From: Desulfoscipio geothermicus
GTDB taxonomy: Bacteria > Bacillota > Desulfotomaculia > Desulfotomaculales > Desulfallaceae
Reading direction: 5' to 3'
Assembly: GCA_016841905.1 (NCBI GenBank)
Contig: JAENYF010000033.1
Location: 1 to 34,678 of the forward strand
Length of the DNA stretch: 34,678 nucleotides
Below the pieces are notes generated by a model, which was given only the letters and a program-made list of their open reading frames with translations, was not told the origin of the DNA and searched no databases. The translations under genes were made by a program, and so were the position numbers. The first letter of the stretch is position 1. Each line of letters opens with the position of its first letter. This document shows, piece by piece, positions 6,016 through 30,846 of this stretch.

Positions 6016-6076
6016 AACCGCCTCAGCCAGTTTGCTGTCGACGATCAGGACATCGGCCAGGGTACGTTCACTGATA

Positions 6077-6373: not shown

Positions 6374-6391
6374 TATTGGAATACCTCCTTA

Positions 6392-6555
6392 AAGAAAGCA
6401 TTCAAAGAACTGTTGACTTCAGTTATTCTAGTCTTAACTAAAATGCTAAATTAAAGTAGGCCACGGAAGCCATCAGCCTTGTACTGATTAAGTAGACTAC
6501 GGGATATACACAGTTCGTAATCCCGCAGATAATAAAAGCCACCGTTCCCGGAAAA
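6392..6555. repeat. 164-bp direct repeat, copy 2
   Basis: The second copy of the element at 554-717, same orientation, with four base differences. It sits between the truncated PHP gene and the dead end of jetC. Its minus-strand frame ends in the same hydrophobic tail as the HEAT chimera, but here without an upstream coding region. The flanks differ from copy 1 on both sides. Confidence 0.85.
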
Positions 6556-6621
6556 GTACCAACCGGGTATGGCAGGCTAGTAATTTGTCATATGCAAATA
6601 AGGGGACAGTTATCACCACCC

Positions 6622-10555: not shown

Positions 10556-10582
10556 AGCCGCAATTTTCCGGCTCCTCTACCC

Positions 10583-11632
10583 TTACTCCAGCAATGCTGC
10601 CAACACCTGATAATTCAGGATTTCCTGGGGAATATACAGTCCCTGCTGCAAAAAGAACAGTCTGTCCTCATCCGGCTCCAGTCCCAGCAACCTCCCGAAC
10701 TCCTCAACTTTAACCTTAAGTTCCCGCCTATCAGGACTTGGCGGCAGATCTCGTGCTTCGGCCAGGTGCAGCATGTTTTTGTAAAGGGCCTGAAAGGGCC
10801 TGAGATTAAGAGCGGGGTTTGACTTTTGGGTACGGTAATATAGGCGGATTCCTTCATAATCAAGATCGCCGAAATAAAGGAAATTTCCCTTGCTCAGGAC
10901 TTCCCGGCCAAACATTTCCTGAGCGTAATTTTCCAGAGCTTTGGGTTTGGTTATCTTATTCCCTTCACCATAGATCAGAGCCTGGACAGAAGTGCCGGCC
11001 AGGCAATTTTTCCCGGTTTCCCGCAGGAGTTTCCGCAAAGTGAACCAGGTATCCTTATTCTCGATCACCAGCAAAGTCCCCGGTAGTGAGCGCTCATGAA
11101 CATACTCAAAAAAGGGTTCAGGAGTGTCGTAATAATTTAGAAGGTTTTCCGACAACCCATTAAATCGGAACACTTCCCGGAGCAATGCAAACTGCTCATC
11201 TATCAGCTTCTCTTTACCCCAGACAGAAAACGAACGTTCCTTGCGGGACATGGGCTGTTCGAGCAAATGGGCCCGGTACCAAAGATACCGACTTAAGCCC
11301 TCCAGGATTTCCCGATGGCGAACATAGACCTCCGGCTTTTGCAGATAAGCGGCAATATTCAGGGTTGGTTCCAGTCTCCGGATCGGTTCCAGACAATCCG
11401 TATAATCTTCCCGGGGTTTGATAATCCGGTATTTATTCGCCAGAGAAGGCACCCGTCCGTTTTGCCCCGAGGCCTTGACGGGAATCAGCTTGCCTTCGGT
11501 CAGCAGCTCTGCCACAAAACTATAAAAAGCAGGATAATTCGGTTCACCTAAAAGCTTCTGAAGTTCGAGCACTGTAATACCGCTCTTGACTTTAACCCAT
11601 TGCTTTAATTTTTCTGCAGGAGTTTCCGACAT
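10583..11632 (-). CDS. jetD: Wadjet JetD (Toprim nuclease subunit)
   Basis: The ATG at 11630-11632 follows a GAGG site. The 349-aa protein has an N-terminal DUF3322-like region and a C-terminal Toprim domain (DUF2220 type, topoisomerase VI A-like). The Toprim glutamate lies in LLVIENKDTW (Glu191) and the DxD in YFGDLDYEGI (Asp256, Asp258). In Wadjet this nuclease cleaves circular plasmid DNA after loop extrusion by JetABC. It is the first gene of the operon, 27 bases before jetA, and looks intact. Confidence 0.9.
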   Translation of the reverse strand: MSETPAEKLKQWVKVKSGITVLELQKLLGEPNYPAFYSFVAELLTEGKLIPVKASGQNGRVPSLANKYRIIKPREDYTDCLEPIRRLEPTLNIAAYLQKPEVYVRHREILEGLSRYLWYRAHLLEQPMSRKERSFSVWGKEKLIDEQFALLREVFRFNGLSENLLNYYDTPEPFFEYVHERSLPGTLLVIENKDTWFTLRKLLRETGKNCLAGTSVQALIYGEGNKITKPKALENYAQEMFGREVLSKGNFLYFGDLDYEGIRLYYRTQKSNPALNLRPFQALYKNMLHLAEARDLPPSPDRRELKVKVEEFGRLLGLEPDEDRLFFLQQGLYIPQEILNYQVLAALLE

Positions 11633-11664
11633 GATACAACCTCGCTAAACATGTTTTCGATATA

Positions 11665-11693
11665 ATTATGCCAATTATTACCCGTTCCTGCAA
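11665..11693 (-). promoter_or_regulatory. Likely sigma-A promoter of the jet operon
   Basis: Reading leftward, TTGCAG (complement of 11688-11693) and CATAAT (complement of 11665-11670) are separated by 17 bases and lie about 30-60 bases upstream of the jetD start. This is a good match to the vegetative consensus. No operator-like repeat is evident around it. Confidence 0.5.
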
Positions 11694-11736
11694 ATTTCTA
11701 AAGCAAGAATGCTTAGGATAATGTACTAAGTAGTTG

Positions 11737-11922
11737 TTAAATACCCCTTTTTTCCTCCCAAAGACGTGTGCGTTCTTCATAACTCACTTCTTTATGTATT
11801 TGATGCAGCATCCATAGATAGCCGAAAGCGTCGCTAAACATAGCGTTGGACACTCCGTAATCAGCCATTTCAGTCACCGGTTGCACTTCAGTACAACCTA
11901 CGCTGATCGCCTTGGCATAGGT
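11737..11922 (-). pseudogene. VOC/PhnB-like protein C-terminal fragment
   Basis: The minus strand encodes AISVGCTEVQPVTEMADYG followed by SDAFGYLWMLHQIHKE and ends at a TAA (11737-11739). This is the characteristic last beta-strand and 'DPFG..W' region of vicinal-oxygen-chelate (glyoxalase/PhnB-like) proteins. The N-terminal three quarters are missing. The frame begins at the junction with the AAA ATPase fragment near 11920. Confidence 0.65.
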
Positions 11923-12369
11923 TTCCTTGATGTGTCACCCTCATCAGCGTCACGGTAACATACCACCACACCAGGCACATCTTCGGCTTCCAGAGCATTT
12001 AAAACAGCCGGGTTATGGGTGGTAACAATTACGTCGATACCTTTTTTCTTGCCCAGTTCCCTTAAGGCGCTAATTAACTTTTTTGCCCTGCTGGGGTGCA
12101 GGCCGTTGTCAACTTCCTCAACCACTACAGTAGTCCCCGGCTTTTTGCCCACCAGCGCTGCTAGTGTTGACAAATACCGGAGTGTGCCGTCCGACATACC
12201 CCTGTTGTCAACGGGCTTAGTATAACGGCCAAATTGTTCTATAAAGCTCAGCATTACATCTCCTGTAGGCGTATCAAGGACTTTTATATCTACAATTTGT
12301 TGCTCGGGAAAATCCTGGAGATATTTGAGCAGCAACTGCTTATAGTTATTATCTGGGTGGTTTCAATGG
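11898..12369 (-). pseudogene. AAA ATPase (AAA_21/OLD-like) C-terminal fragment
   Basis: About 155 residues are readable. They include the signature-like RGMSDGTLRYLSTLAAL, Walker B VVVEEVDNGLHPSR and the switch histidine TTHNPAVLNAL, as in the ABC-like AAA_21 ATPases found in defence systems. The Walker A half is absent: upstream the frame runs into the hsdR fragment at about 12353-12369. Downstream it ends in the VOC fragment with a short nonsense tail. The identity of the original system cannot be recovered. Confidence 0.7.
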
Positions 12370-12783
12370 CCCAGTTCTAGTACTTCCGGATGGCAGCTTC
12401 CAGCAGTTCGGAGAATTTCCTGGACTGGACCAGGTTGCGCCTGGAGAATGTCTTGATGCTGCCTTTGAGCAGCCGGTTGAGCAGTTCCACCGCCAGGTTC
12501 TTCTGCTTCATGCCTTTGACTTCTTCCATGAACTCGTCCGATAGTAGATCGCTTTGGAGACCAACTGGTTCAAGGCGCTGTCCAGCTGGGAGGTGGTTTT
12601 CTTTTTGCTGTCGTCACCGAGCATTTTGACCAGGCCGGCTTTGACGGCTTTATGGAAGCCGACCTCTACGTTGAGGGCTGCCGCAGTAGCGGTGGTGGCG
12701 CACAGGGAATAAGCCCTGGCCATTTCGGTGACCAGCTTGAGATAGTCGTTTTTACGCTCCTCACGGAGCCCGATGATATAATC
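12353..12783 (-). pseudogene. hsdR C-terminal fragment
   Basis: This is a direct-orientation copy of the 3' part of hsdR (about 21047-21537). It has high identity but lacks about 60 bases after the codons for LSDEF (joint at about 12540), and it ends abruptly at ATATAATC near 12783. The encoded piece includes [20 protein letters not shown] and [19 protein letters not shown]. The nuclease and helicase motor are absent. Together with the full hsdR it forms direct repeats flanking the helicase trio. Confidence 0.9.
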
Positions 12784-12964
12784 GATGACTTTCCATCGGG
12801 ATATGATTTGGAATTGCCCTCCCAAACATACCGTGCAATGTTCCTTTTGCTGCTACCGGTAAATTATTATGAACGGGCGGGGGAGAAAAATACCGTCACT
12901 GCAAGGTCTTTAGTTAACCCAAGTAGCTGTACGGACATGAAGAGCAAGACAATCCCGAGCGCTA

Positions 12965-14647
12965 TTACCTGTGAAACACTGTATTATCGAATCCCTTGTC
13001 TATATAATCTTTAGGAGCAAAATCACGGATAAAAGGAGAAACCTGCATTTCCCTCGAAGTAGCCCATAATAATACAACCTTATTCTTAGCCCTTGTTATG
13101 GCCACATACAATATCTTTTTCTCATCGTTTAAGATAGCATCATAATCTTTATCATAACTTTCGGTATTTCTTTTATCGCTTCTTTGACTCAGTTCTTTAA
13201 TTCTGCTAAGGTTGGGGTAATGGAAACGGTCAAAGTGCAATATAAAAACGAAATCAAACTCCAACCCCTTCACGCTGTATGCATCTGTAAAGAAAACCGG
13301 TTTTTTGTCCGCGCTATGGTCGAACCGCCGGCCATATTGTTCAGTGGTAATCAGGAAGAAATGACGTTCTAACACCTTTTTTACCGGCGGATTAATCCCT
13401 CTTAGCAAATCTTCCTCATAACGGTGGATAACCGCAACAGTACTGCCGGGTTTTTGCTGCATTATTTCTTTTATGCTTTGTACCAGGTAGTTACATAAGG
13501 CATTATCGGTTTGATAATAGCGTATTTCCGGCTTATCACCTTCCCTGACAAAGTTACGCCCGTCCTCTCGTTCATTTTCCACGTCTTCAAATTTAAATGA
13601 GTTTGCCAGAGACATTATTTGTTTTGTTGACCGGAAGTTTTTGGTTAAGTTTCGAGTGCGGCGCCCCTGAATTTGCAAGCCAAGATTGGCGTAGGAATGC
13701 GGGCTTCTTTTATAAATCCGTTGTTTAGGGTCCCCCGACAAAATAATTGATTTTTTTGTTAATTTAACCAATACCTTAATTTGCATGGGCTGCAAATCCT
13801 GTACCTCATCCACAAATACATAGTCATAGTACATTTCAAAGGGCACCTGGTCCAGGTTCTGCAGCAGTAACAGGGCATAGTCTTCCATATCCAGGTCATC
13901 ATGATACTTGTCCCGCATAACTTGCTGATATAGTTCGAAGATGGTCAAAACCGTGTTCCTTTGAGCCTTGGTCAACCGGGGGTTGTTACTTCGTCCTGTG
14001 CGTTCCACTTCCAGGTATTCATTTTTACTGACCAGCCCGTTTGCTTTCATCCAGAATATTTCTTCCAGAAAAAAAGCAGCATTTTGAGTTTCAAAAAAAC
14101 GTTCTTGTTGGGGTAGCCACTGATATTCTGCCGAGCTTTTATACATTTCCAATATGCGCTCAATGCGGCTCCTAAGGGTATTTTCCTGCCTTTTAATATT
14201 GCGTAGAGAGGCATCAAAATATTTTACATCCAGAAAACCTATTTGTTTTAATAGGCGAAAGGCCATGTAATGAAAAGTATCCATATGTAGAATATGATTA
14301 TCTTTAAGGTCCATAAAAACCGGAGACAGCTCGGCGCGTTTTTTTGCATCATCCAGCAAGGTACGGTTAAAGGTAAGGTATAAAATCCGCTGTGGCCCGG
14401 TTTCCTTTTCCATCACCTTAAGCATCTTATATAGCAAAGTTATGCTTTTGCCGCTGCCGGCTGATCCATTGATGAGCATTTGCGCTTCACTTTGCCGTAC
14501 CACGGCCTCTTGTTCTTCGGATAATACTATCCCAGGCAACAGCCCACTGGTATCGAAATAATGATAATTCTGCCATGCTTTAGCTGAACGCAGGAAAAAA
14601 TCGGCTGCGTTTTCACTAGCTTCTGCCAGCGTTCCTGTCGATGACAT
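12965..14647 (-). CDS. UvrD-like SF1 DNA helicase (third gene of the trio)
   Basis: I choose the ATG at 14645-14647, which has GGAGGGAG just upstream, over a longer frame; this gives 560 aa. Superfamily 1A motifs are all present. They are Walker A GSAGSGKS (about residues 61-68), motif II DEVQD (280-284), motif III GDPKQRIYKR, motif IV NFRSTKQI, motif V SVKGLEFDFVFI and motif VI LYVAITRAKNKV. There is no nuclease or other appended domain. It overlaps the end of the AddB-like gene by 32 bases, so the trio is one translationally coupled operon. It is smaller than housekeeping UvrD/PcrA (about 720 aa). Confidence 0.85.
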   Translation of the reverse strand: MSSTGTLAEASENAADFFLRSAKAWQNYHYFDTSGLLPGIVLSEEQEAVVRQSEAQMLINGSAGSGKSITLLYKMLKVMEKETGPQRILYLTFNRTLLDDAKKRAELSPVFMDLKDNHILHMDTFHYMAFRLLKQIGFLDVKYFDASLRNIKRQENTLRSRIERILEMYKSSAEYQWLPQQERFFETQNAAFFLEEIFWMKANGLVSKNEYLEVERTGRSNNPRLTKAQRNTVLTIFELYQQVMRDKYHDDLDMEDYALLLLQNLDQVPFEMYYDYVFVDEVQDLQPMQIKVLVKLTKKSIILSGDPKQRIYKRSPHSYANLGLQIQGRRTRNLTKNFRSTKQIMSLANSFKFEDVENEREDGRNFVREGDKPEIRYYQTDNALCNYLVQSIKEIMQQKPGSTVAVIHRYEEDLLRGINPPVKKVLERHFFLITTEQYGRRFDHSADKKPVFFTDAYSVKGLEFDFVFILHFDRFHYPNLSRIKELSQRSDKRNTESYDKDYDAILNDEKKILYVAITRAKNKVVLLWATSREMQVSPFIRDFAPKDYIDKGFDNTVFHR

Positions 14648-17246
14648 ACTCTCCCTCCTTGCAGTGCAGCTGGTGCGGACACATTCCACAATGCTGCCCT
14701 GGTGATGGTTTGATATCGTCCCACAGAGCATTATCGTTGAATTCCTTCAGCCACTCCCGTTCTTTCGCAGCCCCCCGGTTATATGCATTTTTAATCTTGA
14801 AATTTACTCCCTGAGCATATCTACCGTATAATTTCTGAATAGCACTCATAGCTTTTGGGTAACTAACATTTTGAAATTGCATATAGTCTCTGATACCCCT
14901 GACCCGAGAAGTGCGGATCAGGTTTTCTTTAAGGGCTTCAGGCCACTGGGGAAACAGCGGAAACAAAAATTTTCTCACACCCTCCCAACCGTTGGCCTGT
15001 TGTACTAGTAGTGAACCGATTACTCCAAAGACAATCCGCTGGTGAAAATCAGATTCATAACATGGATGAGGTCTTAAAATATTGGAGTAAAAAAACTTGC
15101 GCGGGCAAAAATCTAGATCCAACCAGGCAAGTGCAGGGAAATTTGCTTGCAATGGTTTGTTTTCCTGCTTATCCTCCTGTGCAGTTGAGGCTGTTTCCGC
15201 AACCGATGCCAAAAACGACTCTATTTCAGCACTGATATTTTCACTTGAGTGACCATCCATTCGAAAACCGCTTTCCCGGTACAATGAACTCAATACATCA
15301 TAAAACACGCTAGCATCATCATTCTCACGCAAACCTTTGATCCAACTGATAATTAATTTCTTTCCCCTGAAAAAGCTAAGGGTATTAAACAAAGTAAACT
15401 TTAAAAATGATTCGTTGTGCTGTTGGCAAATATAGTCAACCCACAGGCAGTGACAATGTAATTTATATAAACCGGGCGGATCGCTTTGCTTAAAGGATTT
15501 TTTAAGCCAGCTATGAGTGAGATTCCCTGGCATATGATTATTGCGTTGATGATAAGCAATTAAACTGTTAATTGAAAGATCGGTAATATGCAGTTTCTCA
15601 GTTTCCAAGATTAACCCATCTAATTGTTCGATGTTATGAATCTGATGTTTTTCTACAGGCTCGAGATCAATTTCTTCTGGACGCAAACTAAATAGCACAG
15701 CCAGACAGTTTCTAATCTCCGGCGTCCTGACCTGCCAATCGTCAGGAGCTGGAAATGACAGCGCCCGTTCCAGCTTTGCGGCAACGCCGGCAGGAAAAGG
15801 ATTGTGGTCCTGTTCTTGTAATCCCCGCCACATCTGCAGCAACTTTTCCAGGTGCCCTTTCAAAGAGACAGCGTTACTTCCATCCGGCAGCACGGTGAGC
15901 AAAATTCGCTCCAATTCCAGAGTAAGCTCTTGGAGTTGCTTTACTGTCACCGGGTAACGCCTGGCCTGCAAATAAGAGAATGAACGGAAGGGGTTAGTCA
16001 AGTACTTTTTGGTGTGGTTGCGCTGCACCTCATCCCGGGCCAGATCATCGAAGGTCTTACCTGCTTCCGTCAATTTATCCAGTGAAACCAGCCTATCCTT
16101 TATTTCAGTTAAAGTGTCGACGCCTTCCATGTAAGGTTCAAGCACCCTGAGCAAAGAGATGGCCTGTTTGCCGTTCATTCCCTTGCTTATAATCCAGCCA
16201 GAGGTCAAACATTCCAGGTAAACCTCGTAATTTAGCTTAATTTCTGCCCCTTGTCTATTAAACTCATAGAGATAGAAAAAAAACTTGCAAAACGGGTAAT
16301 CAAACAAATTGATCTCGCTGGCGGCAGGGTTGATAATATCACGCATAGACTTGTTCAATAAGTCTGCATTCGGGGATGTGTACTGCATTTGACGTTGTGC
16401 AGGCCGGTTTACGGTTGCAGCCATATGTCGCCTAATATGTACCGGCGAATTAAAGGTCAGCAGTTCCAGCGACAAATCATCAGTTTGACCTTTGTCAATA
16501 TCCTTTCCCTCAACAAAGGCTATAAAGCGAGTACCTCTAGTAAGCTTTGTTTCTTCAGGCAAACTCCAGTCGGCACTGGTCCGCAACGTAATAGTTTGGT
16601 ACAGTTCTCTCCAACCCCGGGACAAATTGGGATACTGCTGGTAATACGGTATGCGGAACACTACCGGAAAACCCCAACTCCGGCAGCGGTGGAAGAATTC
16701 CATAATCGGAGCTGTCACCCGATACATTTGATAAACATACATGACCCTTAATGACGACACACCAAGCGCTTTGTATAAATGACCAATGTCCTTATTCTTG
16801 CGCTGCTCAAGCAAAAAACGAACTTGTTTATCCTGAATTAAACGTTCAAAAAGTTGTTGAAAAATCGTTTCTTCAATTAATTTATGACCAGGCGGCACCA
16901 ACTTTTCGACCCCGGCTTCCACGGCATAACAAAAGCTATAAACCAGTTCATCAATATTGTTTTCTAAAGTTCTGGCAGCGGCGCCAAAGTCCACCGCCAA
17001 CTCTTTCAGCTGTTGCCTAACCAAGGAGTCCAATCTGACCCGGGTTAGCGGCATGTTCCACTCAGGGTAAAGAATTTCTTGCAACCTTTGGTAGGTGAAA
17101 ATATTGGTTTTTGTTTTTTTAGCTACCGCCACATTTTTTAAAAATGTGCCCAGGGTGATGGCAGCAGTAATATGCAGTTCATCAGCTTGAAAATCTAAAC
17201 TGCCAAAATAGGCTCCGGGGTTCTGGTATGTTTCCACATTAAACAC
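14616..17246 (-). CDS. AddB-like iron-sulphur protein without obvious nuclease site
   Basis: An 876-aa protein starting at GTG (17244-17246) with AGGGGG nine bases upstream; its start overlaps the preceding stop. The N-terminal ~650 residues are a diverged, motif-less region that could correspond to the inactive helicase fold of AddB. At the C-terminus four cysteines are arranged as in AddB/Cas4 Fe-S 'staples': Cys714 in LDFCPRKFFYSNIL and Cys853, Cys856, Cys862 in CGMCPHQLHC. Between them a PD-(D/E)XK nuclease should show an H...D...ExK set, but I find none in the expected places (the region reads FGVIGSLLVQQANGWEGV). I infer a DNA-binding scaffold that has lost cleavage activity. It probably complexes with the adjacent AddA-like helicase. 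Confidence 0.65.
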   Translation of the reverse strand: MFNVETYQNPGAYFGSLDFQADELHITAAITLGTFLKNVAVAKKTKTNIFTYQRLQEILYPEWNMPLTRVRLDSLVRQQLKELAVDFGAAARTLENNIDELVYSFCYAVEAGVEKLVPPGHKLIEETIFQQLFERLIQDKQVRFLLEQRKNKDIGHLYKALGVSSLRVMYVYQMYRVTAPIMEFFHRCRSWGFPVVFRIPYYQQYPNLSRGWRELYQTITLRTSADWSLPEETKLTRGTRFIAFVEGKDIDKGQTDDLSLELLTFNSPVHIRRHMAATVNRPAQRQMQYTSPNADLLNKSMRDIINPAASEINLFDYPFCKFFFYLYEFNRQGAEIKLNYEVYLECLTSGWIISKGMNGKQAISLLRVLEPYMEGVDTLTEIKDRLVSLDKLTEAGKTFDDLARDEVQRNHTKKYLTNPFRSFSYLQARRYPVTVKQLQELTLELERILLTVLPDGSNAVSLKGHLEKLLQMWRGLQEQDHNPFPAGVAAKLERALSFPAPDDWQVRTPEIRNCLAVLFSLRPEEIDLEPVEKHQIHNIEQLDGLILETEKLHITDLSINSLIAYHQRNNHMPGNLTHSWLKKSFKQSDPPGLYKLHCHCLWVDYICQQHNESFLKFTLFNTLSFFRGKKLIISWIKGLRENDDASVFYDVLSSLYRESGFRMDGHSSENISAEIESFLASVAETASTAQEDKQENKPLQANFPALAWLDLDFCPRKFFYSNILRPHPCYESDFHQRIVFGVIGSLLVQQANGWEGVRKFLFPLFPQWPEALKENLIRTSRVRGIRDYMQFQNVSYPKAMSAIQKLYGRYAQGVNFKIKNAYNRGAAKEREWLKEFNDNALWDDIKPSPGQHCGMCPHQLHCKEGEYVIDRNAGRS

Positions 17247-19674
17247 CGTACTCTTCCCCCTTAATCAAATCACCCCATGAATTAATCACGTAAGCAGGCG
17301 CGAATGAGTCCTTTAACCGGATATATAAACCTTTTCTAGCCCGTGTCATGGCCACATATAACAGCCTGGTTTCTTCAGCCACAATTTCATCATTTTCCAA
17401 GCTGCTCAACTGTTCATAGTAATTGTTTCTATAAGAACTAGAATTTATATGTAAATGATAGCCCACCAGCAGCCGGTCTTGTACAGCTTGCAGTAAAACC
17501 TGGGAGCGAAATTTACTTAAAAAAAGATGTTTGGTTATGGGAATGACTACATGATCAAATTCTAAACCCTTGGCTTGGTGTACAGTCATACATTTAAAGC
17601 GGTGCCTCCTGTCTGCTTCGGATGCAGCCAAGGGGATTTCTTTGTCGTCGGTCTGAATATTTAAACGAAGGAATTTTTCCAGACGAGGTAGTGTAAGCAC
17701 GGTGTCGGAAAAGTTCTTTTGGATTAAATACATTAGATAATCCAGGTTAAGTTCATACTCAGTTTGGCACACGGCCGCTTCCCTAACTTGCAATGCCACA
17801 TCCTGATCGGGAGAGCTTTTTTGCAGGCGGCGCAATATACGTTCGGCATAAACCCGCGCCGGGTTACTCTCATCGATGATCCTGGCTAAAACTTGCAAAA
17901 CAGGAGCATGACCAGCCATTATTCTAAATTCCTGCCACCGGGACCAGTCCGGCTGCTCCCGATATAAATCCGTTAAGTATTCTCTTTCTGGAGTATAACG
18001 GCCAAAGATGGTATAGTTGGACAAAGTACTAGCGCCGTACGACGAGCGGTGCAAAGGAAAAAACTCACTATAAGTATCCGGAGCAATTAAAGCACGGACC
18101 ATTATGTAAAACTCACGTACGGGATCTGTACGGTAAAAATTCCCCTGGGTTGCCCCTTCACAAAAAAAATCCGTTTCCTTGCACCATTTAATTATGTCTT
18201 GTACATCCTGATTAGTGCGCACAAGCAAGGCTGTGTCGGTATTGACAAGGCTTTGTAAAACCTCTTTTAATTTAGCTTGGGTAGTAAAAAGCTCTATTCC
18301 GGCACAGTGCCCCTTATCCCTTAATGTCGGCATAAGAATGTCATTGGCGGTATATTGGAATTTGGCTACTGTTTTACCCCAGCGACGGAAAAGCGCGTTC
18401 ATGCGATTTAACAATTTATCCATGGTACGGTAGTTTTTCACCAGTAATTTATGCTGCACATCCAGGCCACGCTGCTGTAACCCCTGCTTTAATTGCCTGA
18501 AGGCGGTGTAATCTGCTCCCCTAAACCGGTAAATGCTTTGTTTCTCGTCCCCAACAACAAATAACCGGCAACCCAGTTGATCAAAAAGCCAGAGCAAAAA
18601 TTGCACTTGTATGATGTCGGTATCTTGGAATTCGTCAACCATCAGAAAGCGAATAGGTATTTTATCTATTATACCGGGTAAATCTGGCAACCGGTCAAGG
18701 AAGCGGATTAAGTCACTTATCTCCCATTGATACTGCTCGTCTTTTATCCTATCTAGTTCTTCACGCAGCCCACGTATCAGAAAATGCAAAAGATTCGACA
18801 TTTGTTGCTGGTCAGCACCGAAATCTAAATGATGAATAATTTTTTCGCTATTGATTGCTTTGTTTTCCAGCACCGAATTGACATCCAGCGCCATATTAAC
18901 AATAAGGTATTGGGGAATAAAGCTGATGGGATGATATTCTTTAGGGTACTGGATAGAATATTGATCAATTAGCTTTTCTATGATTTTTTGCTTGTTAAAG
19001 CGAAAACTCCTCAACGAAGGAGTAGAAGGAAGCCCCAACTCAGGCCCGGCAGTTTCTAAAAACCATTTAGCAAAGGAATGGATTGTGGAAATGCGCAGTT
19101 TTTGGGACTCTTCTATCCATTCCAGGTAGCGTTTTTGCCCGGTGATTTTAAAATAAACCATTAGCCGGTCAGTTAGTTTTCGGCGCATATGTACGGCAGC
19201 CTCATTGGTGAAAGTGATCAAGGCTATTTCAGAAAAGGAAAGGGCCGGATTGGCATGTTTTAAAAACAGCAGGCGTTGGATCATCACCGTAGTTTTACCG
19301 GTGCCTGCCCCGGCAGATACGATAATGTGAACATCCACATTTTCATGCTCGGCTTCGTATTGCTCACGGTTGAACTGAGAATTCCCGCAGATATACACAT
19401 ATAAAGCCGTGTCGGTCACGATCCCATCCAAAAAGGCTACTTCACTGGTAGGAAGTTGGCTGTTAAAATGGATTTCCTCCCAATAGAAAAGCCCGTATTT
19501 TTTGGCTTCAAGCCAGGCATGGTTATGCTCATAATTTTCAAGACTGTCCGTAGTAAAAAGAAAGACCTTAATCCCCCGGTGAATATCGCCAAGCAGGCGG
19601 GTTGAGAGAAAACCGTCAACAGTCTGGGTAAAGATAAAAATAGAATTTTTGGCAGCAGAGAAATCCATGCCCAC
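17239..19674 (-). CDS. AddA/RecB-like SF1 helicase with an unusual N-terminal domain
   Basis: A GTG at 19672-19674, seven bases after GGAGGG, is the best start (811 aa); an ATG two codons on and one nine codons upstream are alternatives. Helicase motifs: Walker A SAGAGTGKT (about residues 120-128), motif II VDEFQDTD, motif III GDEKQSIYRFRGAD, motif IV NYRT, motif V TVHQAKGLEFDHVVIP, motif VI LLYVAMTRARKG. It ends about 40 residues after motif VI, so the RecB-type nuclease domain present in AddA is missing. About 100 residues precede the Q-motif (FNREQY). They are alpha/beta and contain RGIKVFLFTTD and EVAFLDG, vaguely like a phospholipase-D-type domain without its HKD residues. This is low confidence. 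Confidence 0.85.
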   Translation of the reverse strand: MGMDFSAAKNSIFIFTQTVDGFLSTRLLGDIHRGIKVFLFTTDSLENYEHNHAWLEAKKYGLFYWEEIHFNSQLPTSEVAFLDGIVTDTALYVYICGNSQFNREQYEAEHENVDVHIIVSAGAGTGKTTVMIQRLLFLKHANPALSFSEIALITFTNEAAVHMRRKLTDRLMVYFKITGQKRYLEWIEESQKLRISTIHSFAKWFLETAGPELGLPSTPSLRSFRFNKQKIIEKLIDQYSIQYPKEYHPISFIPQYLIVNMALDVNSVLENKAINSEKIIHHLDFGADQQQMSNLLHFLIRGLREELDRIKDEQYQWEISDLIRFLDRLPDLPGIIDKIPIRFLMVDEFQDTDIIQVQFLLWLFDQLGCRLFVVGDEKQSIYRFRGADYTAFRQLKQGLQQRGLDVQHKLLVKNYRTMDKLLNRMNALFRRWGKTVAKFQYTANDILMPTLRDKGHCAGIELFTTQAKLKEVLQSLVNTDTALLVRTNQDVQDIIKWCKETDFFCEGATQGNFYRTDPVREFYIMVRALIAPDTYSEFFPLHRSSYGASTLSNYTIFGRYTPEREYLTDLYREQPDWSRWQEFRIMAGHAPVLQVLARIIDESNPARVYAERILRRLQKSSPDQDVALQVREAAVCQTEYELNLDYLMYLIQKNFSDTVLTLPRLEKFLRLNIQTDDKEIPLAASEADRRHRFKCMTVHQAKGLEFDHVVIPITKHLFLSKFRSQVLLQAVQDRLLVGYHLHINSSSYRNNYYEQLSSLENDEIVAEETRLLYVAMTRARKGLYIRLKDSFAPAYVINSWGDLIKGEEYGV

Positions 19675-19898
19675 AACTGGTCCCTCCAAGCAAAGTACCA
19701 TTTGTTTCTTGTATTATGCAAAATACAATAAAACCCTTCTTAATTTGACAAATAAGCATCAGATTGGTAATTTTTTTGTTGGCAGGGACTCTCTGGTAAA
19801 ACAGAAGAGAATCTTTAGCAATAACCATGTATTGTACTTGTTTAAGTAATAGTGAAACATATTTAGATCAACCATTCATCCCCAACATTAATTCTATT
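19675..19898 (-). promoter_or_regulatory. Gap with possible promoter and small palindrome for the trio
   Basis: No gene seen. Reading leftward, TTGTCA, 17 bases and then TTGTAT form a weak promoter-like pair ahead of the AddA-like gene. TTGTAT and ATACAA flank eight bases as a small inverted repeat in the -10 region (about 19710-19735). No terminator is visible after the 238-aa gene, so readthrough from the hsd operon into the trio is possible. Confidence 0.3.
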
Positions 19899-20615
19899 TT
19901 ATTCCTGATTCAACTCGGTATAATCGGCACGGAAGTATACTTTGTAATCCGATGGCTTAAAACCATAGGCTTTGATCATTTTTACAATCAAATTACGGAT
20001 ACTGTTGCCACTCATATTAGTTTCAATGAATACCCTATCCAGTATCGGTTGTGGTCTCCGCATACCGTCCGGTGAGGAGGAAATGTATTTAACCTTTTTA
20101 CCGTTCATGCCTGGAGCATGCTCAAAGGAGAGAAATTTTTCCGTATCTATAGCGAACAATAACTCAGCTGTTTTAAGCAGCATTTTTTGCCAGGTATTAA
20201 CTTCAATAATTTGTTGATCATTAATTTTAAAAGCAAAAGGTCTTTTATGTGTAAAATTCTCATAGAGTGTATGTTCGACATTATGATCAACCAAATAATC
20301 CGCATAGTTGGGAATTGTTTTTCTTTCAGCTTCCTCGTCTGCATCCTCATCATCAATAAACTCTACTGAATCCACATTAAGCTTATTAATAAATTGGTCA
20401 ATTAACTGTTCATAATCATAAACAAATAGAGCTAGCTCATCATATTGCCTGCGTGTTTGAAAATCTCTCTTGTGGAAAGAATCATTAGACTTATTATTGA
20501 TGGCGTTCATTGTGTCGCTAATAACTTCTTTAAGAAGTTCCAAGCTTTCGGCTAAATCCATAGCTTTATTGGGAAATTCATTTTTTATTGACTGCATAGC
20601 GCTATCAAGATCCAT
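19899..20615 (-). CDS. 238-aa conserved-looking protein linked to the R-M operon
   Basis: The ATG at 20613-20615 has a GAGGAGTGAG site. The first ~100 residues are helical and end in a very acidic stretch (EFIDDEDADEEAERK). Residues ~110-238 look like a compact alpha/beta domain with strongly patterned segments (ENFTHKRPFAFKINDQQ, NTWQKMLLKTAELLFAID, FIETNMSGNSIRNLI, YKVYFRADYTEL). I recall this C-terminal pattern only from uncharacterised proteins beside restriction or defence genes and cannot name a domain. It is 66 bases downstream of hsdR in the same direction, so it is probably cotranscribed with hsd. It could equally be the first gene of the helicase module. Confidence 0.7.
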   Translation of the reverse strand: MDLDSAMQSIKNEFPNKAMDLAESLELLKEVISDTMNAINNKSNDSFHKRDFQTRRQYDELALFVYDYEQLIDQFINKLNVDSVEFIDDEDADEEAERKTIPNYADYLVDHNVEHTLYENFTHKRPFAFKINDQQIIEVNTWQKMLLKTAELLFAIDTEKFLSFEHAPGMNGKKVKYISSSPDGMRRPQPILDRVFIETNMSGNSIRNLIVKMIKAYGFKPSDYKVYFRADYTELNQE

Positions 20616-20681: not shown

Positions 20682-23600
20682 CTACCGCCCCAGCTGCCCG
20701 GCTTCATTCTCACACATCAGCTTGGTCTGCTCCATCACGATCTCCACCGCCTTCGCTGTCTTATCCGGTGGATACCCGTATTTCTTCAGCAGCCGTTTGA
20801 TGATCATTTTCATTTTGGCCTGCACGCTTTCACGAATGGCCCAGTCTACGCTGATGTTGTTCTTAATCGCAGTGGTTAAGTCTCTGGCGATCTGCACCAG
20901 GATCTCGTCACCCATGACTTCCCGGGCGGATTCGTTTTCGGCCAGCGCGTCGTAGAAGGCCAGTTCGTCTGGGGTGAGGCCGGTGGTTTCGCCGCGTTTT
21001 TCTGCCTCACTGATCTCTTTGGCCAGTTCAATCAGCTCCATGATCACCTGGGTGGTTTCAATGGCTCGGTTCTGGTACTTCCGGATGGCCGCTTCCAGCA
21101 GTTCGGAGAACTTTCGGGACTGCACGAGGTTGCGCCTGGAGAAGGTCTTAATGTTGCCTTTGAGCAGCCGGTTGAGCAGCTCCACCGCCAGGTTCTTCTG
21201 CTTCATGCCTTTGACTTCTTCCAGGAACTCGTCCGAGAGAATGGCGATATTCGGCTTGGCCAGGCCCACGGAGTCTAAGATATCGACCACTTCGTTGGAG
21301 GAGATCGCTTTGGAGACCAACTGGTTCAAGGCGCTGTCCAGCTGGGAGGTGGTTTTCTTTTTGCTGTCGTCACCGAGCATTTTGACCAGACCGGCTTTGA
21401 CGGCTTTATGGAAGCCGACCTCTACGTTGAGGGTTTCCGCAATCGCGGTGGTGGCGCACAGGGAATAAGCCCGAGCCATTTCGGTGACCAGCTTGATGAA
21501 GTCGTTCTTACGCTCTTCCCGGAGCCCGATGATATAATCCATCGTCTCCACGATGGCCTGCATTTTCTCGCTGGGCTTGCCATCGAAGAATTTGCTGTAG
21601 TCGTGACCATGCAGCAGTTCTTTAATGAGGTCGTGTTTTTCCAGGAGCACCTGAGCCGCTATTTCGGTATCCACACCGGTGGTCTGCTGATCGCTTTCGG
21701 TATACTGGGCCAGGGCTTGCTTCAAATTTTCCGCGATGCCGATGTAATCGACCACCAGGCCGCCCTGTTTATCCTTAAATACCCGGTTCACCCTGGCAAT
21801 AGCCTGCATCAAGTTATGGCCGCTCATCGGCTTGTCGATATACATGGTATGCAGGCTGGGCACGTCAAAGCCGGTGAGCCACATGTCCCGCACAATGACC
21901 AGCTTTAGCTCATCGCTGCGGTCCTTCATCCGTTTGGCCAGGGTTTCCCGGTTGGCCTTAGTGCCAATAAAGGGTTGCCAGTCTGCCGGGTCGGAGGAAC
22001 TGCCGGTCATGACCACCTTAATTTTGCCGGCCAGCAAATCATCACTGTGCCACTGGGGGCGCAGGGCTACAATAGCCCGATACAGATCAACGGCAATCCG
22101 CCGGCTCATGACCACGATCATGCCCTTGCCGCCCTCGTTTTCCTGTGCCTGGTCCCGCTGCTCGAAGTGCTCGACGATATCCCGAGCGATCTGCTGCACC
22201 CGTTCTTTGGCGCCGACAATAGCCTCCAACCTGGCCCATTTGGATTTAAGCTTTTCTTTCTGGCTGTACTCCTGGTACTCGGTGATCTCTTCATATTCGG
22301 CATCGACCTGCGGTTTCATTTCTTCCGGCAGCTCAAGCTTGGCGATGCGGCTTTCGTAAAAAATCTTGACGGTGGTGCCGTCTTCCACCGCCCTGGTCAT
22401 ATCGTAAACATCGATATAATCCCCAAAGACAGCCCTGGTATTTTTATCAGTTAGCTCAACCGGCGTGCCGGTAAAACCGATGTAAGAGGCATTGGGGAGG
22501 CTGTCCCGCAGGTACTTGGCATAGCCGTATTTGACCCCGGCCGCTGCCTTGCCCTTGACCACTGCTGCCCCGAAGCCATACTGACTGCGGTGGGCTTCGT
22601 CCGCGATGACAATGACGTTTTTCCGGTCGGTGAGGACCACGCCTGACCAATAGGGAGCCGTGCTTTCAGCCACCTGCTCCAAAGTTTCATAAGCGCTTGC
22701 GCCTTCTTTGAGCTGCTCGGGAAAAGGGGCAAACTTATGGATGGTGGTGAAAATAATCCCCCCGCTGGTGCGGTTGTTCAACAGTTCTCTCAAATGCGTC
22801 CGGTCTTCCGCCTGCACCGGCGTGCTGCGCAGCAGCTCCTTGCTTTTCAGAAAGGTGCTGTACAGCTGGTCATCTAGATCGTTGCGGTCGGTGATGACGA
22901 CAATGGTGGGGTTGGCCAGTTCTTCGCTGAGCACCAGTTTGCCGGCATAGAACACCATGGAGAGGCTTTTGCCGCTGCCCTGGGTGTGCCAGATCACGCC
23001 GATCCGGCGGTCGCCATTGGCCTGCGTGGCCCGTTCGGTGCTCTCCACGGCTTTATTGACCGCATGGTATTGGTGGTAACCGGCCAGAATTTTGATAGTT
23101 TCCTGGCCATCGCTTTGGAACAATATAAAGTGCTTGATTATATCCAGCAAACGGTCCTGCCGGAACATGCCCTTGATCAATACCTCCAGCTGGGGAATGG
23201 ACAGGGGGGCCACCTCGTCGCCGTCAATGGTACGCCAGGCCATAAAGCGGTCCTCATCGGCGGTCAGGGTGCCGGCCCTAGCGTTGATCCCGTCGCTGGC
23301 CACCATGAAGGAATTGTAGGTAAATAATGAAGGGATGGCGGTTTTATAGGTTTGCAGCTGGTTATAGGCATCGGTGATGTCCACGTTTTCGTCGCCGGCG
23401 CTTTTTAGCTCGATAACCACCAGGGGCAGCCCGTTGACAAAGACCACCACGTCCGGACGTTTTTCCACGCCGTGCTCCACGACCGTGAATTGGTTGGCGA
23501 CCATGAATTCGTTGTTCAACGGGTTAGCAAAGTCGAAGACATAAGCCTTCTCGGTGCGGTAACCGGCATCTGCTTGTTTGACCTGCACATCGATGCCGTC

Positions 23601-23888
23601 GGTGACCATCTTTTGAAAAGCCCGGTTGTTCATGAACAGGCTGGGGCTTTGGGGGATGCTGATCTGCCTGAAGGCCTCTTCGATGGCCGCACCGGGCAGC
23701 CGGGGGTTGATCCTGGCCAGGGCATCCTTTAACCGCTCCGCCAGAATAACCTCGCTGTAATCCTCACGTTCCGGGTACTCCCCGTCCGGGGCCAAATCCG
23801 GCGCAAAGACGATTTCGTAGCCCAGTTCCTCAAACCACTCCAGGGTGGCTGCTTCCAGGTGGGATTCGTAGAAATCATGACCGGCCAT
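20682..23888 (-). CDS. hsdR: Type I restriction enzyme R subunit
   Basis: A 1,068-aa protein, full length for the family; its ATG directly abuts the hsdS stop (TAAATG on the coding strand). The N-terminal PD-(D/E)XK nuclease is visible as KRPDVVVF...[11 protein letters not shown] (Asp146, Glu160, Lys162). The SF2 translocase follows, with Walker [12 protein letters not shown] (Lys307), [15 protein letters not shown] and the late motifs [12 protein letters not shown] helical C-terminus of ~300 residues docks on the HsdMS core. It translocates DNA and cuts unmodified DNA at a distance from the recognition site. No disruption is seen. Confidence 0.95.
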
Positions 23889-25079
23889 TTACTGCACCTC
23901 CTTGAGGGGGACTTGGATTTCTCCTGACATGAGTTTTGGGAGTAGAGTGTCGCGAATAATTTCTAGCTGTTGATTTTCTCTTAGATTATTCTCAATACAA
24001 TTGAATATTTCATTGAATTGTGTAGCTTCTATGACATCGTCGTTTGGAATAATTAGTGTTAACTTTGAAATAGTATCCTTGCTCAAGTTCTGTTGAGCAG
24101 CACCAACTGCTAAACTTTCAATATAAGATTGTTTGTTTAACAGATGTAAATATAAAAATATTGCCTTATTAGCACTGTTGCAAATCATCGCGCAACAAGC
24201 TTGATTTGTACAAGCTTCAAACTTTAATAATCCAATTTTACCTGCCGTAGCACCATACATAGCTATTAAAACTGAATTATATGGTAATATTTTTGTTGAA
24301 CTATTCTTAAGTCCTTCATTAGAAATATACTCTTCACTATTGATTATAAGTGAATTTTTAATCTCACCAGTTTTTATCCAAGGAACATCATTTGAACACC
24401 AATAGTTTTCTATTTTCCGACTAGGTGTGCCACCATTTTTCATATCCTTTACAAACTCACCTATTGTACCTACTCTCCACCCCTTAGGAATCCTGCCTAA
24501 CTCGCTGTCTTCAAACTCTCCGCCCTGAAAGGGCTCGAAGTCCACAAACCAGCTCTTGAAAATCGCCTGGGCCATTTCCTCAAGAGTTCTGTTGATCTGA
24601 TTGTTGAGTTCAATTTTATCATCAAAGCAGGATAGAGTATCAGCTATCACCTTTTGTTCGAGTAATGGAGGAAGCACAAACTTTATCGAGTTCAAGTTAG
24701 CTTGACTTAACTTTGGTTGAGCGGACCCAGTAATATAGCCTGAAATATCAGAGTTATTAAATACGTAACATAAATATCGAATGTCAGACAAATGATTACT
24801 AGTTACTACATGGGCATGGTTATTCACCCAAAACTGTCCGTGAGCAAGTTGCGCAATATTTCGTTTTTTTGATTTAAGATTTTCTCCATCTTCGGCAATA
24901 AGTAAATATACCCCATCAAATATGTAGCCATTAATATAGTCTATAATACCTTGCGCACCGTAGTAAGGATATATACCTTTCATCTTTTCTCTTTCTTTAG
25001 AGGAAAGAGGTTTTCTTCTTTTATCGTGATTTATAGTTACATCTTCAAAACTATAAATTTTCCACCCACTAGAACTCAT
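23889..25079 (-). CDS. hsdS: Type I restriction enzyme specificity subunit
   Basis: A 396-aa HsdS with two target recognition domains: TRD1 at about residues 1-150 ([20 protein letters not shown]) and TRD2 at about 200-380 ([20 protein letters not shown]). They are joined by the helical spacer [25 protein letters not shown] and followed by a second conserved helix ([19 protein letters not shown]). Its start overlaps the hsdM end by 11 bases. The two TRD segments are clearly AT-richer than the spacer region near 24470-24620 and than hsdM and hsdR, as expected when TRDs are exchanged between strains. It sets which bipartite sequence is methylated and cut. Confidence 0.93.
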
Positions 25080-26550
25080 ACCCGATCGCCCCCAATCGCT
25101 GCCTGATTTCCTCCTCCAGCTGATGCGATTTAGCGAACAGTTCGGCCAGCTCGGCGGTCAGTCTGGTCATCTTCTCGTCAAACGGTTCCCCGTCATCATC
25201 GGCTTCTTCAATACCCACATAGCGCCCCGGGGTCAGGATATAATCGTGACTGCGCACTTCTTCAATGCTTGCCGATTTACAGAATCCTTGCACATCCTGA
25301 TAGGCTTCCTTGCCGTCCCGCCAGTTATGGTAGGTGTCGCAGATCTGCGCAATTTCATCACCGGAAAGCTCCCGGTGCTTACGGGTGACCATCGTGCCCA
25401 TTTTCCGGACGTCGATAAACAGTATTTTATCCTTGCGATTGTCTCTTTTTTTAGCCAGGAACCACAAACATACCGGTATGGTCACATTGTAAAACAAATT
25501 TGGCGGCATGGTGACAATGCAGTCCACCAGCCTCGCTTCAATGATGTTCTTTCTAATCTCGGCTTCCGCTTTGGTGGAGGTGCTCATCGAGCCGTTGGCC
25601 AGAACAAAGCCGGCCACCCCGGCGGGGGATAGCTTGCTGATAATATGCTCAATCCAGGCGTAGTTGGCGTTGTTGGCCGGGGGGATGCCGTACTTCCAGC
25701 GGACGTCATCCGGTATCAAGGTATAATCACTTACGTTAAAGGGCGGGTTGGCCAGTATGTAATCGGCCCGGAGGTTTTTGTGCAGGTCGTTACCGAAGGT
25801 ATCGGCGTCCCGCTCGCCCAGGTTAGCGTCGATGCCGCGGATGGCCAGATTCATTTTGCACAGCTTCCAGGTAGCCGCGGTGAACTCCTGGCCAAATATA
25901 TGGATATCATCCTTGCGGCCCTGGTGTTCCTCCACAAAGCGTTTAGACTGGACAAACATGCCGCCGGACCCGCAGCAGGGGTCATAAACCCGGCCTTTAT
26001 AAGGCTCAATCATGCCCACCAGTAGCTTGACTATAGTGGGCGGCGTGTAAAACTCGCCTTCGCTGGAACCGAATTTACCCAAAAAGTATTCATAAACCCG
26101 GCCTAAAATATCCTGTGCCCGGGCTTCTTTATCTCCCAGGTTAAATGAGAACAAGTCGATTAACTCGCCCAGCTTGGTTTTGTCCAGTTCCGGCCGGGCG
26201 TAGTTTTTGGGGAGCACCCCTTTTAGGCTTTTATTCTCCCGCTCAATGGCAATCATCGCGTCATCGATAATTTGGCCGATGGTGGTTTGCTTGGCGTTCT
26301 TTTTGATATATTCCCACCTGGCAGCGGCGGGCACAAAGAAAATATTTTCGGCTATGTAGGCATCCCGGTCCTCTTCAAAGCCCTCCTCCTCATCCACCAG
26401 CTCCCGGTATTTTTCCTCAAAGCTGTCGGAGATGTATTTGAGGAAGATGAGCCCCAGGACCACATCCTTATAATCTGAGGGCTGGATGTTGCCCCGCAGT
26501 TTATCCGCCATTTCCCACAATTTATTTTCAAACTCTAAATTTACCGCCAT
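25069..26550 (-). CDS. hsdM: Type I DNA adenine methyltransferase subunit
   Basis: A 493-aa HsdM with the N-terminal helical HsdM_N domain ([20 protein letters not shown]), motif X region [19 protein letters not shown]-binding motif [12 protein letters not shown] (residues ~189-199) and catalytic motif IV ILANPPF (NPPF 268-271). All expected residues are present. It acts as (HsdM)2HsdS to N6-methylate adenine on both strands and with HsdR in restriction. A decayed partial copy of this gene lies at 5463-5812. Confidence 0.96.
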
Positions 26551-26562
26551 TGTCCCATCCTC

Positions 26563-28146
26563 CTACACCAATTCGTTATAGATACTGTCTTTTATTTGCG
26601 ACCACCGGTCTGCTGCCTGCCGGACAGCCTGCCGGTATATATCCTGCTCCGCCTGGTATTTAGCGACAATTTGCTGCTGCTTACTCGGCGGCAGCAGGGG
26701 GATTTCCATTTCCATGATATCGGCATAATTGATATTCATGATACTGGTGCCCCGCTGTAAGCTCTTGATGATGGCCAACCCGACGGGGCTTGACAAAAAT
26801 ATCTTGAGATACTCCCCGGTGACTTTTTCCCCGGGCCGGATGACAATTAAATTAGCCGAGGCAATGATGATTTTGTCCTGGGCTGCAAATACCGCGGTTT
26901 TGATGGCCGTGCCCCGGCAGGACAGCACCACATCGCCGGTGAGCAGCTCATAGCGTTTGATTTTCCGTTCCTCCTCAGCGATGGTGTCCATATGCTCATA
27001 GTTAATCTCGCCGTCTTCGATATTGGAGATATTCAGCACGGCTATGCTGCCCGGGGAAGTATCCTTTTTCAAGATGGACTTGCCTCTAAACACTTCGGCT
27101 ACCTCTTTAAGCTTTACCTTGGGTATAGCCGACTCTTTAAATCTGCTGATATTCTCATTATCATCAGCCAGGAGCAGCTCCAGGCGCCAGTCCTGGTGAG
27201 CTAAAAATTCCTCGGTGGCGATTAACTTTTGTTCAACGCAGTTGAATGCACCTTGATGCAGTTCTAAAGTACCCAGCGCTATATAAGGCCGGGGGGCGGC
27301 CGTGATGGTGCATAAGTAGGTTTTGACGGCAGTTACCGGCCTAAAGATGCCCTCCGGCAGGATGAAAATGCTTTGCACATGGTAGTTAGCGGTAATAAAG
27401 GCTCTGAGCTGCCGGTATTCCATGCCGGCGAAGGTTAGCCTGGCCGGCACGATAATATCCAGCGTACCCTGGTCGCTTAAATGCCCCAGCAGGTTTTCCA
27501 GGGCGATGCCGTCACTATCCCTGGTGATAAACCGGCGGCCTAATTCCTCAGGCTTAGAGCCGAAGCCGGGCAGCGCATAGATATAATCGAACTGCTCCCC
27601 CGGTAAGCACTCGGTGTAAATGGAGACAAAACGGATTTTAACCTGGGGGTGCTCACCAAAGGCCAGCTGCAACAACAGGTGCATCGGCTTTAGCTGGGTG
27701 GTTAAAGTGATCTCAGCTTGGGGAAACTGCCGGATAATTTCGGCCAGTCCGGCTAAATGCTTTTCCGCTTCGACAATAAGAATACGCTGCGGCTGCAATT
27801 CCCGCATTCTATCACATATATAGGAGATTAAATACCGGGGGGCGATGACCGTACCCAGGCGGTCATTTTTATAGATCTCCAGGGTAAAATCGATCAAATC
27901 GATATCCTTTAACGCGGCAAAAATGGCCAGCCAGTCATCCCGATCCGCTGGGAAGAAGCCTAACTTAGCTTCCGTGTTTTTTTTCATAAATTGAAACAGC
28001 TGCCCTTTGTCACCAGTACTGCCTGCAGCTTGCTCCAGCTTCTTTAAGGTCATTTTCACCCGCAGCATTTCGTTGAGTAACTGTTCCCTGGAAGATAGCT
28101 GCCTTTGGTATAAGACATTTAAAGCTCCATCTATATGCGAATTCAC
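26563..28146 (-). CDS. Pseudo-methyltransferase fused to a single HsdS-type recognition domain
   Basis: A 527-aa protein starting at GTG (28144-28146) with AGAGG upstream. Residues ~50-300 follow the layout of a type I N6-methyltransferase (RLGTVIAPRYLISYICDRM, then the SAM region, then the catalytic strand). However, motif I reads ILIVEAEKHLAGL with no glycine loop, and the NPPF position reads YALPGFGSK (~190-198). It should therefore neither bind SAM normally nor methylate. Residues ~335-525 form one HsdS-like half (PKVKLKEVAEVFRGKSI ... PLLPPSKQQQIVAKYQ). It is the first gene of the hsd operon, 12 bases before hsdM. Plausible roles are an alternative specificity module, a regulator of restriction or a DNA-bound scaffold; these are inferences. 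Confidence 0.75.
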   Translation of the reverse strand: MNSHIDGALNVLYQRQLSSREQLLNEMLRVKMTLKKLEQAAGSTGDKGQLFQFMKKNTEAKLGFFPADRDDWLAIFAALKDIDLIDFTLEIYKNDRLGTVIAPRYLISYICDRMRELQPQRILIVEAEKHLAGLAEIIRQFPQAEITLTTQLKPMHLLLQLAFGEHPQVKIRFVSIYTECLPGEQFDYIYALPGFGSKPEELGRRFITRDSDGIALENLLGHLSDQGTLDIIVPARLTFAGMEYRQLRAFITANYHVQSIFILPEGIFRPVTAVKTYLCTITAAPRPYIALGTLELHQGAFNCVEQKLIATEEFLAHQDWRLELLLADDNENISRFKESAIPKVKLKEVAEVFRGKSILKKDTSPGSIAVLNISNIEDGEINYEHMDTIAEEERKIKRYELLTGDVVLSCRGTAIKTAVFAAQDKIIIASANLIVIRPGEKVTGEYLKIFLSSPVGLAIIKSLQRGTSIMNINYADIMEMEIPLLPPSKQQQIVAKYQAEQDIYRQAVRQAADRWSQIKDSIYNELV

Positions 28147-30844: not shown

Positions 30845-30846
30845 TC

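Follow-up and report, generated by a model that had tools for sequence, protein, structure and literature searches.

A recurring AddA-like, AddB-like and UvrD-like gene trio without AddAB nuclease cores, and its plausible role in bacterial defense

AddAB and RecBCD are textbook machines that act on broken DNA, and both are targets of phage inhibitors. What, then, is the role of an AddAB-like gene set that lies among bacterial defense genes, carries a third and separate helicase, and lacks recognizable nucleases? Such a set occurs in a contig of Desulfoscipio geothermicus (JAENYF010000033.1, assembly GCA_016841905.1), analyzed here over its whole stretch of 34,678 nucleotides, which we call the window. 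Three overlapping genes on the minus strand span positions 12965-19701, with all reading frames open:

17239..19701, minus strand: gene 1, AddA-like superfamily 1A (SF1A) helicase, 820 amino acids (aa), alternative start at 19668 possible
14616..17246, minus strand: gene 2, AddB-like protein, 876 aa, GTG start
12965..14647, minus strand: gene 3, UvrD-like SF1A helicase, 560 aa from the likely ATG at 14647

We find that this trio is, by its sequences, a conserved variant of the AddAB/RecBCD type, for which a role in defense is plausible. Read from its first ATG, the UvrD-like open reading frame (ORF) would run from 12965 to 14731 and encode 588 aa; a AAGGAGGGAGAGT stretch precedes the ATG at 14647 and homologues begin near there, making 14647 the more likely start. 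The AddA-like protein may in turn begin at 19668.

Both helicases retain their ATPase motifs. The AddA-like protein matches the Pfam families UvrD-helicase (1.1e-40) and UvrD_C, and the UvrD-like protein matches the same two (5e-27 and 8.6e-20). All complete homologues (11/11 AddA-like and 12/12 UvrD-like) have motifs II and VI, and the Walker A pattern matches in 10/11 and 12/12, respectively, with the eleventh AddA-like protein reading SGAGTGKT; judged by these ATPase motifs, both predicted motors are intact. A profile comparison (hhalign) aligns the AddA-like family with housekeeping AddA at probability 100 and E 2.9e-44, over AddA columns 10-931 of 1282. Because the alignment stops at column 931, the C-terminal nuclease domain of AddA has no counterpart in the AddA-like protein. 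At its N-terminus this protein has an additional alpha/beta domain (roughly residues 13-105), in which few residues are invariant. Its top Foldseek matches are PcrA (1qhg) and AddA (4cej_A), and the nearest NCBIfam model is addA, at 143.6 bits versus a cut-off of 707.65. The UvrD-like protein is of UvrD type, scoring 12.9 bits against the RecD2 model (cut-off 500), and for both helicases PADLOC returns GajB and RTasHel matches at the level of the superfamily. On a quick tree of 34 rows, some on long branches, ten UvrD-like rows form a single clade, and ten AddA-like rows plus three distant relatives form another that stands apart from housekeeping AddA and PcrA (Shimodaira-Hasegawa-like approximate likelihood ratio test support 100 for each). 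The Geobacillus AddA-like row groups with an Exiguobacterium relative (support 82), so that the AddA-like proteins of the trio do not make up one clean clade.

The AddB-like protein keeps a cysteine staple (C714/C853/C856/C862 in the window), and the four cysteines are found in 11/11 complete homologues. The gap between the first and second staple cysteines is 139 residues in the window protein and 137-152 across the 11 homologues, versus 316-335 in 5/5 canonical AddB proteins, a difference that indicates that the AddB nuclease core is missing; the staple pattern is not matched in two divergent AddB proteins. The motifs GRIDRxD and DYK, in exact or near form, are present in 5/5 canonical AddB proteins, and the first alone in 2/2 divergent ones; neither is found in the last quarter of 11/11 AddB-like proteins. 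When the whole AddB-like proteins are searched with a loose catalytic pattern, it matches once, well upstream of the staple, in the Thermoflavimicrobium protein (residue 527). In a Pfam scan of 11 AddB-like proteins (that of the window and ten others, one of them a fragment), PDDEXK_1 matches the window protein below threshold, over the part that holds the cysteines (10.7 bits; cut-off 22). ATPase patterns (Walker A, II and VI) are found in 0/11 AddB-like proteins. No NCBIfam model matches the window protein, no solved structure matches the family profile, and PADLOC offers Cas11 alone, at a chance-level E of 0.046. When a structure model is searched with Foldseek, the four best matches are AddB chains (3u44_B, E 1.2e-8). 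By these patterns, the AddB-like protein is a predicted scaffold-like protein that retains the staple and lacks both ATPase motifs and the AddB nuclease core.

The architecture of the trio is thus well supported by motif and profile comparisons. It agrees with the first-pass annotation of this DNA, which had described three overlapping minus-strand genes with a separate third helicase, full SF1 motifs in genes 1 and 3, and an AddB/Cas4-type cysteine staple in gene 2. That annotation had also found neither nuclease recognizable, a statement that can now be sharpened: the nuclease cores are missing.

The trio is found in 12 genomes or plasmids and is complete, in the same order and on the same strand, in 11 of them; at the twelfth, in a Thermoactinomycetaceae metagenome-assembled genome (MAG; locus L012), the contig starts inside the AddB-like gene. 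Besides the window and this MAG, the carriers are a second D. geothermicus MAG (G003), the genomes G039 and G426, Shimazuella alba, S. kribbensis, Bacillus dakarensis, a Clostridium MAG, UBA4916, Thermoflavimicrobium daqui, and the Geobacillus zalihae plasmid pJS1-2. A scan of genome contigs confirmed eight trio loci, one identical with the G003 contig, and the Geobacillus plasmid adds one. The carriers are scattered Firmicutes, with AddB-like identity to the window protein falling to 21%, and the recurrence of the same genes in the same order across them argues that the trio is not a chance arrangement. Matches to the AddB-like family are found in 4/150 relatives (own genome and a doubtful 72-residue match included), 2/398 genomes of the phylum (own genome included), 4/113 genomes of the window's class (own genome and one distant variant included), and 1/9 genomes of one order and 2/82 of that order's class (one a distant variant). 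The weak matches seen are those in G024 (72 residues, one stop), G327 and G259.

Within the trio, the proteins have diverged in step with one another, and purifying selection acts on all three. Their pairwise distances correlate at r 0.95-0.97 over 11 loci, and for nine divergent loci (one of each close pair dropped) Mantel r is 0.90-0.96, with 0/5000 permutations as high. The ratio of nonsynonymous to synonymous divergence (dN/dS) of the trio genes is 0.13-0.17 in the Desulfoscipio pair and 0.06-0.12 in the Shimazuella pair. A pseudogene cluster is ruled out by the three open genes and the dN/dS of 0.13-0.17.

The trio is also distinct from the cell's own AddAB. The window's genome encodes a full-length addB-addA pair on another contig (C10), away from the trio, and its AddB passes the TIGR02773 model; this rules out the idea that the trio is the housekeeping addAB. 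G003 and G426 likewise hold addB-addA elsewhere. In seven further trio genomes, where the search was for AddB alone, AddB passes the cut-off in two (Bacillus and Clostridium). Divergent genes of AddB and AddA type occur in Thermoflavimicrobium and the Thermoactinomycetaceae MAG; in UBA4916, an AddA-type gene lies next to a contig-cut AddB match. No AddB over the cut-off was found in G039, S. alba or S. kribbensis: G039 has one weak match inside another helicase frame and the Shimazuella genomes have none, so that a repair role for the trio is possible in these three. Between the window and G003 (contig C25), synonymous divergence (dS) is 0.38-0.43 for the trio, versus 0.85-0.89 for housekeeping addAB, 0.96 for the neighboring hsdR and 0.66 for hsdM. 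A trio dS of about half that of addAB fits more recent horizontal transfer, as if the trio had moved separately from its neighbors and later than they did. Carriage by phages was considered and rejected: the window AddB-like protein has no match in phage records, and three scans of viral contigs confirmed none. The Geobacillus AddB-like protein matches MT836883.1 (8363 bases; L106), an unverified faecal contig deposited as 'Bacteriophage sp.', on which a regulator-like ORF accompanies AddA-like and AddB-like genes; judged by eye, this contig may be bacterial DNA.

Where the trio sits provides a further line of evidence. In the window it lies downstream of a type I restriction-modification (RM) system whose genes occupy 20682-26550, preceded by a methylase/specificity fusion that we call X:

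19899..20615, minus strand: 238-aa ORF between hsdR and the trio, no family over cut-off
20682..23888, minus strand: HsdR, type I restriction subunit (PADLOC REase_I, 1149.7 bits)
23889..25079, minus strand: HsdS, specificity subunit (PADLOC Specificity_I, 8.3e-115)
25069..26550, minus strand: HsdM, methylase (PADLOC MTase_I, 1e-231)
26563..28146, minus strand: X, 527-aa methylase/specificity fusion (Pfam N6_Mtase and Methylase_S)

The 238-aa ORF is probably outside the trio unit; compared with the other trio loci, its sole match is a C-terminal stretch after hsdR in G003. The type I system adjoins an IetA/IetS pair (AAA ATPase and subtilase, 28376-31815) with full-length ORFs. On the opposite side, the trio is flanked by broken Wadjet, hsdM and hsdR remains. 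The Wadjet remains (8196-11632) comprise open frames for JetD, JetA and a DUF6063 protein that we take to be JetB, with JetC reduced to its N- and C-terminal pieces; an AAA fragment (11898-12335) and an hsdR C-terminal fragment (12508-12825) follow. The region 4834-12825, with its hsdM and hsdR fragments, looks like debris of earlier defense systems. The AAA fragment best matches PDC-M07A in PADLOC (1.2e-55) and the GajA model weakly (1.1e-10); it has a longer relative of 426 aa in G003, with a PIN-like neighbor by eye.

Across the family, type I RM adjoins the trio at 7/12 loci, in different gene orders and in three or four lineages. X-HsdM-S-R accompanies the trio in two orders, in the window, G003, both Shimazuella species, Thermoflavimicrobium and the Thermoactinomycetaceae MAG (whose contig stops within hsdS), X adjoining hsdM in all six; the type I genes of the Clostridium locus, in the order R-M-S, are distantly related to these. 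In Shimazuella, 39-42 bp separate the trio from the hsdR upstream of it. Matches to ZorA, ZorB and ZorC (Zorya) adjoin the trio of Bacillus dakarensis, and on the Geobacillus plasmid AlwI restriction and abortive-infection genes are annotated at a distance of 5-7 kb; in all, defense neighbors are found by family search at 8/12 loci, plus the plasmid by annotation. Since hsdR passes its cut-off 12 times in 8/11 trio genomes (the Clostridium hsdR scores below), the adjacency in several lineages is, on a rough estimate, far above chance, at 7/12 loci versus ~0.7% expected. A binomial test on 4 of 8 or 9 lineages gives P 1.6e-7 to 1.2e-6, a figure that uses a rough chance rate of 0.7-1%, ignores the clustering of defense genes, and counts Shimazuella and Thermoflavimicrobium apart, though they form one clade on the tree. 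The five remaining loci have no type I RM in the flanks read; the genomes G039 and G499 hold hsdR elsewhere. The G039 flank contains a Helicase_C ORF and ORFs that resemble a toxin-antitoxin pair by eye, and inspection by eye, without family search, showed no defense gene in the flanks of G426 and UBA4916. An obligate tie to X-HsdMSR is ruled out by near full-length X in the trio-free genomes G042, G108 and G054. In the last two, the hsdM accompanying X is short or cut by the contig end, and partial X occurs in trio-free G105 and G119. Distant Firmicutes, too, have the X fusion together with this type I system, whether the trio is present or not.

More distant relatives suggest that the AddA/AddB-like pair can work in other company. 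In G052 (L098:5117-17735), a five-gene operon encodes a NERD-AddA-like protein, a staple-bearing AddB-like protein, two helicases that resemble DpdE (386 bits, cut-off 500) and DpdF (548 bits, cut-off 550), and a 263-aa protein. Judged by the size and look of its ORFs, G521 (L099:780-13422) carries a matching series, the last encoding about 260 aa; its AddA-like and AddB-like genes alone were tested, with the trio hidden Markov models (HMMs), and the family scan was limited to G052. In G459 (L114:2018-11960), an AddA-like gene (trio HMM, 2.4e-79) neighbors a gene for an 818-aa protein that matches a distant-AddB profile (A10, 6.7e-23) and is not matched by the trio AddB HMM; two genes resembling DNA methylases by eye lie some ORFs upstream of this pair. 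On an Exiguobacterium plasmid, the AddA/AddB-like pair precedes genes for an unknown protein and a HerA-type ATPase and then a gene annotated as HNH; the AddB-like protein of this plasmid has no Pfam match at E 0.01. These few loci suggest a common AddA/AddB-like core with changing partners.

We propose, giving it an even chance of being right, that the trio is a DNA-end motor complex derived from AddAB/RecBCD that has lost its nucleases and is used in defense. The three proteins would assemble into one RecBCD-like complex, in which the staple, by analogy with AddAB, would bind an iron-sulfur cluster and grip a broken DNA end, while the two motors would unwind the DNA and pull inward from the gripped end. 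Destruction or inhibition of the DNA would be left to partners such as the adjacent restriction enzyme or host nucleases, and the targets would be linear or cut phage and plasmid DNA. This proposal is supported by the conserved gene order, co-divergence, purifying selection, the helicase motifs, the staple, the separate addAB, the defense neighbors, the AddB chains as best fold matches, the low trio dS, and the NERD- and DpdE/DpdF-like relative in G052. The first-pass annotation had placed the trio among restriction, Wadjet and other remnants, which the RM genes, Jet genes, IetAS and the hsdR and AAA fragments confirm, and had favored a defense machine over housekeeping recombination. The conserved unit, the separate addAB on C10 and the recurrence of the trio in order, often near defense genes, speak for this view, and neither of the two findings that the annotation named as refuting it, the trio as sole AddAB-type locus or homologues never together or never near defense genes, holds for the window's genome; the loci lacking such neighbors, and the possible repair role in three genomes without AddB over the cut-off, limit it. 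Its description of a poorly described system also stands: the trio is real, it is conserved as a variant form of AddAB/RecBCD, and we found no description of it in the literature searched at the level of titles and abstract openings, mostly outside subscription papers.

Several observations weigh against our proposal. The hhalign match between the AddB-like family and housekeeping AddB is weak (probability 10, E 0.003, with collinear N-terminal parts), and that to a two-row divergent AddB alignment is similarly so. The AddB-like structure model is of modest confidence (mean predicted local distance difference test score 62, C-terminus under 50), its fold matches reach a template modeling score of ~0.33, and UvrD and AdnB chains also match it at E ~1e-6 to 1e-5, as does RecC. 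Three of the 12 loci (G039, G426 and UBA4916) have no clear defense neighbor in the flanks read, the X-HsdMSR module is found without the trio (complete in G042 only), and no separate UvrD-like third gene was found by HMM search with the distant pairs of G052, G521, G459 and Exiguobacterium. Lastly, the plasmid record labels the Exiguobacterium AddB-like protein 'PD-(D/E)XK nuclease family protein', and two of the 11 AddB-like proteins scanned, those of Shimazuella alba (24.0 bits) and Thermoflavimicrobium (22.7 bits), pass the PDDEXK_1 cut-off of 22. These two matches could signal a cryptic nuclease, either in the reduced C-terminal domain of the AddB-like protein or in the N-terminal domain of the AddA-like protein, an idea also favored by the invariance of D733, H735 and K773 in a nine-row AddB-like alignment and by the N-terminal NERD domain of a distant relative. 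However, the matches are confined to profile positions 193-247 and 198-247, respectively, of 247; being limited to the staple end, they support both kinship with AddB/Cas4 nucleases and the absence of the core. With the Asp and Lys motifs missing from the last quarter of all 11 proteins, the one loose match lying upstream, and few invariant residues in the AddA-like N-terminal domain, we judge a hidden nuclease to be improbable.

A less remote alternative, though still an unlikely one, is that the trio is a second repair or recombination helicase borne by a mobile element, which does not attack DNA at all and which backs up AddAB (for example, under a phage inhibitor) or recombines its carrier element. 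AddAB ancestry, the plasmid-borne locus, the three loci without a clear defense neighbor and the three trio genomes without AddB over the cut-off elsewhere are all consistent with this idea; the missing resection nucleases, the patchy spread (even counting own, doubtful and distant matches) and the enrichment next to RM argue against it. That same enrichment, at seven loci in three or four lineages against a rough expectation of under one in a hundred, and the tight Shimazuella spacing behind hsdR instead favor a purely accessory role in restriction, with the trio loading on ends made by the type I enzyme and speeding the loss of cut DNA. Five of the 12 loci lack type I RM in the flanks read, with hsdR elsewhere in G039 and G499, and genomic islands gather unrelated genes, leaving this possibility a slim one, somewhat ahead of the cryptic nuclease.

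Taken more broadly, and tentatively, the trio may be the minimal form of a new class of defense systems, built on an AddAB-derived core that has lost the nuclease core, kept the staple, and accepts swappable modules, with the trio itself keeping out invading DNA solely by motors working at its ends. The modules would be, equally tentatively, a UvrD-like motor, NERD plus DpdE/DpdF-like helicases, or HerA/HNH-type neighbors. A mobile relative of AddAB with two motors, an end clamp and no recognized nuclease would separate unwinding from cutting naturally, and poses the question of how a helicase-only end-processing complex affects invading DNA. Such a relative would, moreover, bring with it a family of AddB-type scaffolds for which the copy of PADLOC that we searched has no name.

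Among known systems, Gabija shares a UvrD-like defense helicase with the trio, and GajB is the name that PADLOC ranks first for genes 1 and 3. That match reflects the helicase superfamily at large, and no GajA partner accompanies the trio: of the window proteins put through PADLOC, the AAA fragment alone is listed for GajA, weakly. Dpd is connected with the family through the distant AddA/AddB-like pair in an operon with DpdE-like and DpdF-like helicases (G052, and apparently G521), loci that differ in lacking the UvrD-like third gene; DpdE and DpdF are absent among the matches listed for the window proteins scanned. Identity with Gabija or Dpd was rejected, as the partner genes were not found among the matches listed. 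Hudaiberdiev et al. 2017 (PMC5704561) treat UvrD-Cas4 fusions and operons. In their section on these genes, an SF1 helicase is joined to a Cas4/AddB-type domain, often adjoining restriction genes, and a Cas4-like nuclease is carried; that section describes no AddA/AddB/UvrD trio. With AddAB (RexAB), the trio shares an AddA-type SF1A motor, a probable AddB-type helicase-like scaffold and the cysteine staple; it differs in lacking both nuclease domains, in its third, separate helicase, in placing the AddA-like gene before the AddB-like gene, and in scoring far under the NCBIfam cut-offs. With RecBCD, it differs in a second motor that is UvrD-like rather than RecD-like (SF1B), in the absence of the RecB nuclease, and in keeping a cysteine staple that RecC is not known to have. 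The two nonetheless share a plan of three proteins, two motors and a dead scaffold, with RecC itself among the fold matches of the AddB-like protein.

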